Below, piece by piece: positions 31,094 through 39,509 of a stretch of 60,505 nucleotides of DNA (its first letter is position 1; each line of letters opens with the position of its first letter). The position numbers and the translations under genes were made by a program. Source of the DNA: a virus; the IMG/VR virus record IMGVR_UViG_3300031672_000001, positions 1 to 60,505 of that record; one strand, written 5' to 3'. Under the pieces are notes generated by a model, which did no database searches, was not told where the DNA came from, and saw only the letters and a list, made by a program, of their open reading frames with translations.

Positions 31094-31390
31094 CTAGCCC
31101 ACGTTCAGCGAGGCGAGCTTGCCGGAGCGTTCAAGGAAGCCGAGGGCCGCGTTGAGGCGGTCCACGGCCCCTTCGCCCCACGTACTGTTCGCCCACTGCA
31201 CGAGAGCGTCCCGCGTGGCATAAGGGTTCGCTTGGACGTACGTGTAGAGACTGCTTGAGTCCGCGAGAATGCTGGCGGCCACATCCGGCGTCAGGCCCAA
31301 TTCGGCGAGCTGAGCATCGGTCAGGAACGCTTGTGCGCCTTCCGAACCCGGGGGGACCGGCGGCGGCTTAGGTGGCTTCTTTGCTGCCAT
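31094..31390 (-). CDS. Small helical protein in neck region, 98 aa
   Basis: After a Lys/Pro-rich start (MAAKKPPKPPPVPPGSEG) the rest is helical (FLTDAQLAELGLTPDVAAS, AVDRLNAALGFLERSG). It overlaps the last 23 bases of the methyltransferase gene. It could be a connector component; the family is not recognised. Confidence 0.55.
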   Translation of the reverse strand: MAAKKPPKPPPVPPGSEGAQAFLTDAQLAELGLTPDVAASILADSSSLYTYVQANPYATRDALVQWANSTWGEGAVDRLNAALGFLERSGKLASLNVG

Positions 31391-31868
31391 TTGGCTTCCT
31401 CGCTTCCGCTAGTACGCCGCCGCCCTCGTGACTAGAGCGGATGTCGATGACCTCCAAGCCGGCAGCCTCGATGATCGGTCGCATCTCCGATAGCGTGAAC
31501 GCAGCACGGTGAACATCGGCGTGATAGGACTGTGATCCGCACAAGCGCTCCGAGCATTCGGCCCAGGTGTTCTTTCCGGATTCGTAGTCCGCCAAGATCC
31601 CGCGCACATCCGGCACAATCACCGTGAGCTTCCCTCCGGGTGTCAGGATGCGTGCCCACTCCGTCAACGTCTCGTGGGTCTTGAGGACGTGCTCTAGGAC
31701 GTTGCAGGCGTAGATCTCCTCGAAACAGTCTGCGGGTAGGCCGGTGAGGCGCATGTCGCACTGGTGCGTGGTTGGGTTCCCGCGCTCTGACCAGTCGTTG
31801 ATGTCGAGTTGCTCCCAGTCGGGGTGCGCGGGGGACGGCCCTCCGCCGATCTCTAGGCGCCTTACCAT
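31368..31868 (-). CDS. SAM-dependent methyltransferase (class I), 166 aa
   Basis: ATG at 31868 gives MVRRLEIGGGPSPAHPDWEQ, in which LEIGGG is the SAM-binding loop and LDIND the acidic second-strand residue. IYACNVLEHVLKTHETLTEW and GGKLTVIVPDVRG complete the Rossmann fold of methyltransferases related to Methyltransf_11. HADVHRAAFTLSEM follows. It closes the glycosyltransferase cassette and overlaps the GT2 gene by seven bases. Substrate is unknown; a glycan or glycan-bearing protein is likely. Confidence 0.8.
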   Translation of the reverse strand: MVRRLEIGGGPSPAHPDWEQLDINDWSERGNPTTHQCDMRLTGLPADCFEEIYACNVLEHVLKTHETLTEWARILTPGGKLTVIVPDVRGILADYESGKNTWAECSERLCGSQSYHADVHRAAFTLSEMRPIIEAAGLEVIDIRSSHEGGGVLAEARKPNGSKEAT

Positions 31869-32443
31869 GTCGCGGGCTCGTAGCCGTAATCGTGAAGGTG
31901 CCACTCGCGGAGCTGCGCGACGCGCTGGGCGTCAGGCTCCTTCTCCTGTGCATGGACCACAAGCGAATCGTCTATGCGGGCGAAAGCGCCTCCTAGGCGC
32001 TGAACGCGCTCGGGTAGCTCGCAATCCTGAAGCCAGTGCTGGTAGCGCTCATCGTAACCGTAGCCACCGATGCGTTCGTAGCCGGCGCGCGAGAATGCGT
32101 AGCACCAGGGGTTGAGTGCCCAGTTAGTTCCTGCCGGGTCGGTAGCCGACACGACCCAGTAGTCCTTCTCCGCGTCGGCGAGCGCGCTCAGTAGGGGCGG
32201 CAGCCAGTCGCCCTGTACGACCGCATCATCGTGAAGCACGACTAGGACATTCGCCTCGGCGCTCCTGAGGCCGCGGTTGACCCCCCATGTAGACCCGCGT
32301 GATCGCGCGCCGTTGTCGATTACGAGCAGCTCGTAGTCGATGCCAACGGTATGGGCATGGACGGCTTCGAGGCACCGCGTTAGAAGGTTGAGGCGAGGCC
32401 ACGTCGGCACGACGATGGATACCTCGGGCGTGGCCTCGCCCAC
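31862..32443 (-). CDS. Glycosyltransferase family 2, 193 aa
   Basis: The start is GTG 32443, eight bases after GGAGG; a TTG further up is less likely. The protein has the GT-A fold: EVSIVVPTWPRLNLLTRCLE, YELLVIDNGARS, and ANVLVVLHDDAVV with the DDA motif that binds the metal and nucleotide sugar. DERYQHWLQDCELPERVQRLGG holds the acceptor-side ED-type acidic residues. It would transfer a sugar from an NDP donor in the cytoplasm. Confidence 0.85.
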   Translation of the reverse strand: MGEATPEVSIVVPTWPRLNLLTRCLEAVHAHTVGIDYELLVIDNGARSRGSTWGVNRGLRSAEANVLVVLHDDAVVQGDWLPPLLSALADAEKDYWVVSATDPAGTNWALNPWCYAFSRAGYERIGGYGYDERYQHWLQDCELPERVQRLGGAFARIDDSLVVHAQEKEPDAQRVAQLREWHLHDYGYEPATW

Positions 32444-37690: not shown

Positions 37691-38739
37691 GTTCCCGCCA
37701 TCCCCTCGATCACGTCCAACCACCGCCGAGCACACTTGCCCCAGTTGAACTCTTGTGCGACGAACTCAGCGCCTGCTAAGCCCCTCGCGTTCGCCGCCTG
37801 CCTATCCTCAAATACCTCGCGCATCCTGCGCCTGAGATCGGCGACGCTCGGCCGTGCGAAGTTGCCGATTGGCTGGTGCCCGGCGACGTTCGCGTCGTAG
37901 CTCGAACACGATGGTGGCGCCGGCTCCAAGCACTCAACCTCGACCGGGTAGCTGTAGGACTCGTCCGCGATCTCTTGCAGGCCGCCCCAGTCCGTCAGGA
38001 TCGTCGGGAGGCCGGTAGCCATCGCCTCGCGCGGGGTGAGACCGGACGCCTCACCACGGGACGGCGCAAGGAAACAGTCCGCCGTGCCGTAGAGTTCGCG
38101 CATCTCCTCCCGCGTGGCGTCTCCGGCGATCACTCGGATGCGGGGATCGTCGAGTCGCTCATCTCCCACGTCGAGGAAGTTCCGGCGCGTCTTGAGGATC
38201 AGCCGTACATCCTCGCTGCCGAACTCCTCACGGAAGGCTCGAACCGCGAACTCCGCACCCTTGCGGTAATGCAGCATTCCAGTCATCAAGAACGTGAACG
38301 GACCCTCGTGCTCTCGCTCCACGGGTCGGTAGAAGTCGATATCGACTCCGAGCGGCACGACCTTGACCGGCACGTCTAGCTTCGCCTGGAATGCTTCGCG
38401 GCAATGCTCTGACGGGACGATGATCCCGTTCGTCGCGTTGCAGCACGGTATCCAGAACGGTGGGATCGAATCCGTCTCGAACATGGTCGAGCCGAGCGTG
38501 ACCCGAGAGCGGAAGCGCGTAAAAGCGAAGGGAAGGAAGTGGACGATCACCGTGTCTCGGGTGATCTGCGGTGCTTGAAGATCGAGCAGCTTGGGATCGG
38601 TGTAACGCGGGTCCTGCCAATCGTGTGAGATGAACTCGACGTCTGCGCCCAACTCAGTTGCAGCGAGCACCATCCGCTCGGCGCTGACTCCGTAGCCATC
38701 GGCGGATGCGAGGGGAGCCACCACTGAGAATGGCCTCAT
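37687..38739 (-). CDS. GT-B glycosyltransferase (GT4-like), 350 aa
   Basis: The start ATG 38739 forms ATGA with the upstream stop. The acceptor half has SVVAPLASADGYGVSAERMV and HCREAFQAKLDVPVKVVPLG with GVDIDFYRP. The donor half has FTFLMTGMLHYRKGAEFAV, IRVIAGDATREEMRELYGTA and FLAPSRGEASGLTPREAMAT, the EX7E-type nucleotide-sugar site of GT4. It is a complete enzyme in size. Confidence 0.9.
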   Translation of the reverse strand: MRPFSVVAPLASADGYGVSAERMVLAATELGADVEFISHDWQDPRYTDPKLLDLQAPQITRDTVIVHFLPFAFTRFRSRVTLGSTMFETDSIPPFWIPCCNATNGIIVPSEHCREAFQAKLDVPVKVVPLGVDIDFYRPVEREHEGPFTFLMTGMLHYRKGAEFAVRAFREEFGSEDVRLILKTRRNFLDVGDERLDDPRIRVIAGDATREEMRELYGTADCFLAPSRGEASGLTPREAMATGLPTILTDWGGLQEIADESYSYPVEVECLEPAPPSCSSYDANVAGHQPIGNFARPSVADLRRRMREVFEDRQAANARGLAGAEFVAQEFNWGKCARRWLDVIEGMAGT

Positions 38740-39509
38740 ACACAAGCCTTCAGACGACCGTCTCCGCAAGGGGCAGGATCGTTGTGCGCGGACGTGATAA
38801 GCGCCTGCTCATCCATGTAGTGAGTCGCGTACAGGTCCGTGTCCCACAGACACTCGTATCCGAGCCGATCAAGGTCCTGAGCGAACCCCATATCCTCGCC
38901 GCATTCGTGAAAGGCATACTTCGCCGTCTCGACCACTTGCCGACGCATCGCCACGGCAGCCATCGGAATGTCTATCGGGATGACGCCGTGCGCCTCCTTG
39001 GCTGTCGCGCGCCGCCAAGCTCGGTCAGGACTGCCGGGCTCTCCGCCGGCCCACCAGCCCGCATTGAAACACTCGGATGCTGCGCCAGTCGGATGGAGGT
39101 ACGTGAGCGGTGCCGCAACTGGTGCCCGCTCAAGCAGCTCAAGCAGACGCTCTATCGTGGTGGGATCTTCGAGCATCAGATCCGTGTCGAGCGAGATGAA
39201 CACGTCCGGATCGCGCTTCTGCACCATTTGGAGCAGTCGGTTACGTCGCCAAGCGAAATCGCCGTACACGAACCTCGTCTCTACACTGGCACGCTCCATC
39301 CTCGGCACGTAGCGGGTCTGGTCGATCGCGTAGGAGAGCTTCGCTTGCGGCACATGGTCATGGATGATCTGCCGTGATTGATCGTCGCCCACCTCACCGA
39401 TGACAAAGACGAACTCGTCCGGCACGCGGGTCTGAGAGTAGATGCACTGAAACCACTTTGGGAGCGACCAAGCTCGCGCCGCCACGGGTGCTCCGACGAC
39501 GACCTTCAT
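38736..39509 (-). CDS. Glycosyltransferase family 2-like, 257 aa
   Basis: The product starts MKVVVGAPVAARAWSLPKWF and has RRNRLLQMVQKRDPDVFISL followed by DTDLMLEDPTTIERLL with a DTD metal motif. Later elements include CFNAGWWAGGEPG and FHECGEDMGFAQDLDRLGYE, the ED-type acceptor region. It is the first gene of the cassette and overlaps the next start by ATGA. Confidence 0.8.
   Translation of the reverse strand: MKVVVGAPVAARAWSLPKWFQCIYSQTRVPDEFVFVIGEVGDDQSRQIIHDHVPQAKLSYAIDQTRYVPRMERASVETRFVYGDFAWRRNRLLQMVQKRDPDVFISLDTDLMLEDPTTIERLLELLERAPVAAPLTYLHPTGAASECFNAGWWAGGEPGSPDRAWRRATAKEAHGVIPIDIPMAAVAMRRQVVETAKYAFHECGEDMGFAQDLDRLGYECLWDTDLYATHYMDEQALITSAHNDPAPCGDGRLKACV

Follow-up and report, generated by a model that had tools for sequence, protein, structure and literature searches.

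A glycosyltransferase and methyltransferase cassette resident among the head-tail genes of a virus and its probable role in virion glycosylation

Which molecule is modified when a virus carries a whole set of glycosyltransferase (GT) genes among its head-tail genes? This question is raised by the IMG/VR virus record IMGVR_UViG_3300031672_000001, which represents an uncultured tailed phage and is analyzed here over its stretch of 60,505 nucleotides (nt), which is referred to as the window. Positions 31368-39509 on its minus strand hold one overlapping run of six GT genes (seven catalytic domains) and two methyltransferase genes. Reports of covalent virion glycosylation have so far concerned a handful of phages and small numbers of GT genes. 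The evidence presented below indicates that the cassette is probably a resident operon for the glycosylation of virion proteins. A conserved site at which enzymes are exchanged, deoxysugars are made, and carbon is methylated would imply that the coat of some phages is chemically unusual and of their own making, which would bear on particle stability, adsorption, and antibody recognition.

A preliminary description of the window had proposed six GTs and two methyltransferases in a coupled run, and this was borne out by the open reading frames (ORFs), Pfam matches, a fold match, and gene overlaps (Table 1). Each of the eight enzyme ORFs was found on the minus strand where it had been placed, and a ninth small conserved ORF (36090-36380) was added to them. 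The larger methyltransferase had been recognized as such, but its start lies near 36103 and an intein of 300 amino acids (34265-35164) had been missed. The expected position among virion genes held on the neck side, but the immediate upstream neighbor is an adaptor-like gene (39509-40213) and not a capsid or spike gene. Every junction within the run is overlapping, except for a single gap of 45 nt. The cassette also overlaps the virion genes on either side, with 1 nt shared between the first GT gene (38736-39509) and the adaptor-like gene, and 23 nt shared between the last methyltransferase gene (31368-31904) and the next virion gene (31094-31390). No promoter- or terminator-like site was found when the coding strand of the cassette was searched. 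The ratio of nonsynonymous to synonymous substitution rates (dN/dS) was 0.10-0.37 for the cassette genes, compared with 0.08-0.29 for the flanking and virion genes. This purifying selection indicates that the cassette genes are real and maintained.

Table 1. Features of the cassette and its flanks in the window, listed in the direction of transcription
Feature	Coordinates	Strand	Evidence and remarks
Adaptor-like head-tail gene, upstream flank	39509..40213	-	Named by position only; no match in PHROG search; kept in G001, G002, and G004; stop overlaps start of first GT
GT-A glycosyltransferase, first and conserved cassette gene	38736..39509	-	GT-A fold match of model; candidate priming enzyme
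GT-B glycosyltransferase (GT4-like)	37687..38739	-	ExxxxxxxE motif; Pfam Glyco_trans_1_4 E 4.4e-14; phrog_2170 E 1.8e-38; 90% identity in G001 and G002; listed ORF reaches 38769 (TTG)
Tandem GT2, two domains	36353..37735	-	Pfam Glycos_transf_2 in N half; weak Glyco_trans_2_3 in C half; three-sequence alignment
Conserved ORF, 96 amino acids	36090..36380	-	68-76% identity in G001 and G002; no match in family searches
Sugar C-methyltransferase split by intein	34007..36103 (ORF to 36193)	-	Pfam Methyltransf_13/23/14
Intein, 300 amino acids	34265..35164	-	Within Methyltransf_14 domain; intein-free alleles, TIGR01443, SPO1 homology
GT2 glycosyltransferase	33424..34050	-	Pfam Glycos_transf_2 E 1.4e-11; phrog_2456
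GT-B glycosyltransferase	32525..33427	-	GT4 N-terminal domain recognized; Pfam Glyco_trans_4_4 E 1.5e-7
GT2 glycosyltransferase	31862..32479	-	Pfam Glycos_transf_2 E 9.5e-11
Class I methyltransferase, last cassette gene	31368..31904	-	Pfam Methyltransf_11/23; weak G004 homologue in same place; candidate capping enzyme
Conserved gene, 98 amino acids, downstream flank	31094..31390	-	94% identity to G001; overlaps last methyltransferase by 23 nt
Stopper-like neck gene	30756..31091	-	Named by position only; 82% in G001 and 30% in G004, same place

Four relatives of the window (G000) were found: G001 (48.4 kb), G002 (16.9 kb), G003 (16.7 kb), and, at a greater distance, G004 (52.3 kb). The G002 record stops inside the C-methyltransferase gene and the G003 record stops short of the cassette site; thus, the site can be examined in four phages. 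A cassette occupies it in all four (G000 and the related IMG/VR phages G001, G002, and G004). G004 shares only 58% identity with the window in the major capsid protein (MCP), 39% in the portal, and 42% in the adaptor. Its cassette begins in the same place with a 38% homologue of the first GT, followed by three further GT2-type enzymes, a methyltransferase related to the 31368-31904 product, and then the stopper-like gene. The first GT is conserved, and a methyltransferase gene forms the far end in the three of three cassettes in which that end is covered, although the last methyltransferase of G001 belongs to a different family (Methyltransf_24/RMNT_CmcI). The interior differs between relatives. 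G001 has additional genes for a GDP-mannose 4,6-dehydratase (GMD; Pfam E 4.9e-113, structure match PDB 2z1m), a further GT2, and a 217-amino-acid ORF for which no family match was found. G002 has an HNH endonuclease gene (L003:9401-10000) exactly where G001 has the dehydratase gene. The window retains approximately 49 nt that match the end of the dehydratase gene, and therefore a gene was gained or lost at that point, in either direction. Loss of GMD was not accepted as the sole explanation of this tail, since its gain in G001 is equally possible. These findings demonstrate that the cassette is an old resident of the virion operon. A recent insertion was rejected because the locus is common to distant relatives and its GC content is the same as that of the surroundings. 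The earlier term "inserted" is therefore misleading for a long-standing locus that is shared with G004.

The intein-free orthologue in G001 matches the D-mycarose 3-C-methyltransferase TylC3 (PDB 4rv9; E 3.8e-76, 36% identity) and also TcaB9 (3ndi), both over the full length. The zinc-binding, S-adenosylmethionine, and C-terminal domains are present, and the zinc-binding cysteines (CxxC) and the YHEH motif are kept. Judged by sequence, the 34007-36103 product belongs to the TylC3/TcaB9 family of sugar C-methyltransferases. The segment at 34265-35164 has the sequence hallmarks of an intein, and its splicing is predicted. It starts with Cys, ends with His-Asn, and is followed by Cys as the +1 residue. 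The same protein is encoded without the intein in G001 (L002) and G002 (L003), with the exact junction TFLSY/CGIG. The NCBIfam intein C-terminal model TIGR01443 scored above its cut-off on this segment. Over its entire length, the segment can also be aligned to the intein annotated in SPO1 gp34.33 and to the matching part of the Vibrio phage RYC helicase; block B is APNH in the window and TPNH in SPO1. The middle part gave no clear nuclease match in a Pfam search. A motif block (VYLM...RVG...WVLSV...EA...E...GLP) is common to the middle of the window, SPO1, and RYC inteins. Inteins in related phage records are located in helicases and DNA methylases, whereas that of the window is located in a sugar C-methyltransferase.

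The first GT gave no family match in Pfam, PHROG, or NCBIfam, and its assignment comes from structure prediction. An AlphaFold model from three sequences was too poor, and it became usable once the G004 homologue was added as the fourth (predicted local distance difference test, pLDDT, 65.7; predicted template modeling score, pTM, 0.70). Among the fold matches of this model, COLGALT1, a collagen galactosyltransferase, ranks first (E 9.7e-9, query template modeling score 0.61), followed by WrtF, LH3, and SpsA. DxD and HExGED motifs are present in the protein and conserved in four phages. Profile-profile comparison with the GT2 enzymes of the cassette was not informative. The presence of the protein-modifying enzymes COLGALT1 and LH3 among the best fold matches would favor a protein acceptor; it is only suggestive, because GT-A folds are widely shared.

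Together with these data, a pathway can be proposed. The conserved GT-A enzyme, coupled to the adaptor gene, would act in the cytoplasm of the host and put the first sugar on a virion protein, and the remaining GTs, which vary between phages, would elongate the glycan. The C-methyltransferase would work only after removal of the intein by splicing. Its substrate would be a nucleoside diphosphate-4-keto-6-deoxy sugar of host origin; in G001, part of the supply would come from the phage GMD. By family, the G001 dehydratase makes GDP-4-keto-6-deoxymannose, which is the sugar class for such C-methyltransferases. The two enzymes may therefore form a coherent donor route, and carbon methylation is predicted, although this pairing is only suggestive. 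The last methyltransferase would cap the chain. The outcome would be a methylated, phage-specific particle glycan that differs among relatives much like bacterial O-antigens.

A virion protein is the best reading of the acceptor because the cassette lies at the same virion-operon site in four phages, its products have no membrane spans, no enzyme that prepares DNA for glycosylation was found in the records searched, and its enzyme classes are like those of mycobacteriophage Che8. The preliminary description had favored the same acceptor, which has gained support from these observations. Its "methylated" glycan agrees with the two methyltransferases, and "branched" may hold in another sense, as the sugar itself is possibly C-branched. 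Several points weigh against glycosylation of virion proteins by this route. The acceptor is inferred, and the GT-A fold matches of the first enzyme leave it unfixed. A scan of the virion proteins for a C-terminal Ser/Thr tract found none that was obvious, unlike the C-terminal sites reported in mycobacteriophages. The C-methyltransferase is missing from the G004 cassette, hence this step is not core. A ketoreductase was not recognized among the cassette genes. The characterized members of the C-methyltransferase family use deoxythymidine diphosphate (dTDP)-sugars and are not known to use GDP-sugars.

Other acceptors have to be weighed against a virion protein. The enzymes could alter glycans or lipids of the host surface, so that superinfection is excluded or receptors are masked, and their place in the late operon would then be incidental. 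The best partial NCBIfam matches, which are exopolysaccharide and similar GTs, and the resemblance of the variable interiors to polysaccharide loci agree with this explanation. It is nevertheless unlikely, given that membrane segments are lacking in all cassette proteins (maximum Kyte-Doolittle value 1.54 over 19 residues) and that no flippase or polyprenol-phosphate enzyme was recognized in the cassette. Neither the membrane flippase nor the membrane-anchored GT of GtrABC-type systems was found among the cassette proteins. The late position, the overlap with virion genes, and the single site in all relatives also speak against a host target.

A narrower proposal is that the variable spike or fiber (40293-42449) is the sole acceptor, so that the glycan would be adsorption-specific. 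Its product contains approximately 20% Ser and Thr in dense tracts, and its gene adjoins the adaptor gene. This proposal becomes quite improbable in view of G001, which has the cassette but no such spike gene there, and of the G002 and G004 spikes, which have no detectable similarity to that of the window. Glycosylation of phage DNA at hydroxymethylated bases is the least probable explanation. A C5 cytosine methyltransferase gene is present in the window (57767-59038), and GTs that modify 5-hydroxymethylcytosine have been reported in phages (cited as Pyle et al. 2024). However, the cassette is linked to neck genes, and the enzymes expected to accompany such a modification were not found in records that are possibly incomplete: TET/JBP (PF12851) in G000-G003 and a thymidylate-synthase-type enzyme (PF00303) in G000, G001, and G004. 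The C5-methyltransferase was likewise not found in G001 or G004.

A further hypothesis can be put forward tentatively. The head-tail operon may hold an O-antigen-like locus in which a conserved first enzyme primes the glycan, the gene at the far end encodes a methyltransferase, and the interior is exchangeable. C-methyl-branched deoxysugars, with a phage GMD in one relative, would then give rise to phage "serotypes", and similar loci would have been assembled by unrelated phages. A scan of viral contigs with the C-methyltransferase gave 343 relatives, of which 80 were kept; the cases in virion modules are examples and not a rate. In L036 and L039, the C-methyltransferase and GTs follow the MCP gene and precede an SU10-type adaptor gene. 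They lie between portal and MCP genes in L031 and L033, and between the large terminase (TerL) and portal genes, with a sugar epimerase, in L029. The phenomenon may be wider than recognized because several unrelated phages carry this gene in virion modules. The C-methyltransferase gene is thus a simple marker, which makes the idea testable in cultivable relatives.

Searches for kin of the window and for its host gave few matches. A nucleotide search of phage records with the window gave no match, nor did the portal and major tail proteins in phage records, nor a tblastn search of phage records with the 36353 GT and with three proteins of the cassette or virion. The MCP matched only Methanoculleus virus records (21%), and TerL relatives are spread across actinophages, cyanophages, and others. 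Scans of bacterial genomes with the MCP and the C-methyltransferase found no relative. HNH endonuclease genes are scattered in these phages (window 27556-28374, 2473-3063, and 3377-3955), and the window has an IS1595-family transposase gene (55427-56389). A TnpB/Cas12f-like zinc ribbon fragment (L002:16656-17048) lies inside the G001 cassette and may have been left behind by gene exchange on a transposon. In G003, the large terminase (L010:1062-2495) is 53% identical to that of the window in its C-terminal part and has no detectable similarity in its N-terminal part, as in a mosaic or interrupted gene. The interval between the MCP and adaptor genes is variable. It holds the spike-like gene in the window, an unrelated 784-amino-acid protein in G002 (L003:5214-7568), and, in G004 (L118:13627-16964), a fiber with weak YadA-head-repeat similarity together with a GH26 glycosyl hydrolase; G001 has no such gene.

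Known systems resemble the cassette in part. Passages of PMC12363180, PMC12619734, and PMC11256854 that cite Freeman et al. 2023 describe glycans on the capsid and tail tube proteins of mycobacteriophages and include Myrna among the phages with virion glycosylation genes. Che8 gp110 and Corndog gp38 are described as essential for capsid glycosylation in passages of PMC12363180 and PMC12619734. The cassette shares with the Che8/Corndog type the possession of phage-encoded GTs, of which it has six. Among Che8 gp108-110, one protein is a fusion of GT2 with Methyltransf_24/TylF, one matches GT2 weakly, and one is of the GT25 type. The two systems therefore share GT-A enzymes, GT2 among them, and a methyltransferase of the Methyltransf_24 kind, which is found here in G001. 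In contrast, the three Che8 genes lie at the right end of the genome, outside the neck operon, and no C-methyltransferase or GMD was seen in the gp108-110 stretch. The best BLASTP match of the cassette to Che8 GTs was marginal (E 6e-7, 28% over one domain). Microbacterium phage Magritte gp31 is a 27% homologue of the 37687 GT-B and lies between the tail terminator and major tail genes; however, it is a single GT without a cassette. Chlorovirus PBCV-1 encodes a GMD, GTs, and a GT-methyltransferase fusion, and assembly of its methylated glycan is attributed to the virus and not the host (PMC4691112). This is an analogy only, since PBCV-1 is a eukaryotic virus with N-linked glycans whose genes do not share an operon with those of the virion. 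TylC3 and TcaB9 belong to antibiotic pathways and differ from the enzyme of the window, whose gene is split by an intein. The SPO1 gp34.33 intein shares the CQPAG start and THN end but resides in a DNA helicase. As its enzyme classes agree with those of Che8, the cassette can be regarded as a variant of virion glycosylation of a known type. Relative to known phage virion glycosylation, it is larger, lies within the neck operon, and apparently yields deoxysugars that are methylated and possibly C-branched.

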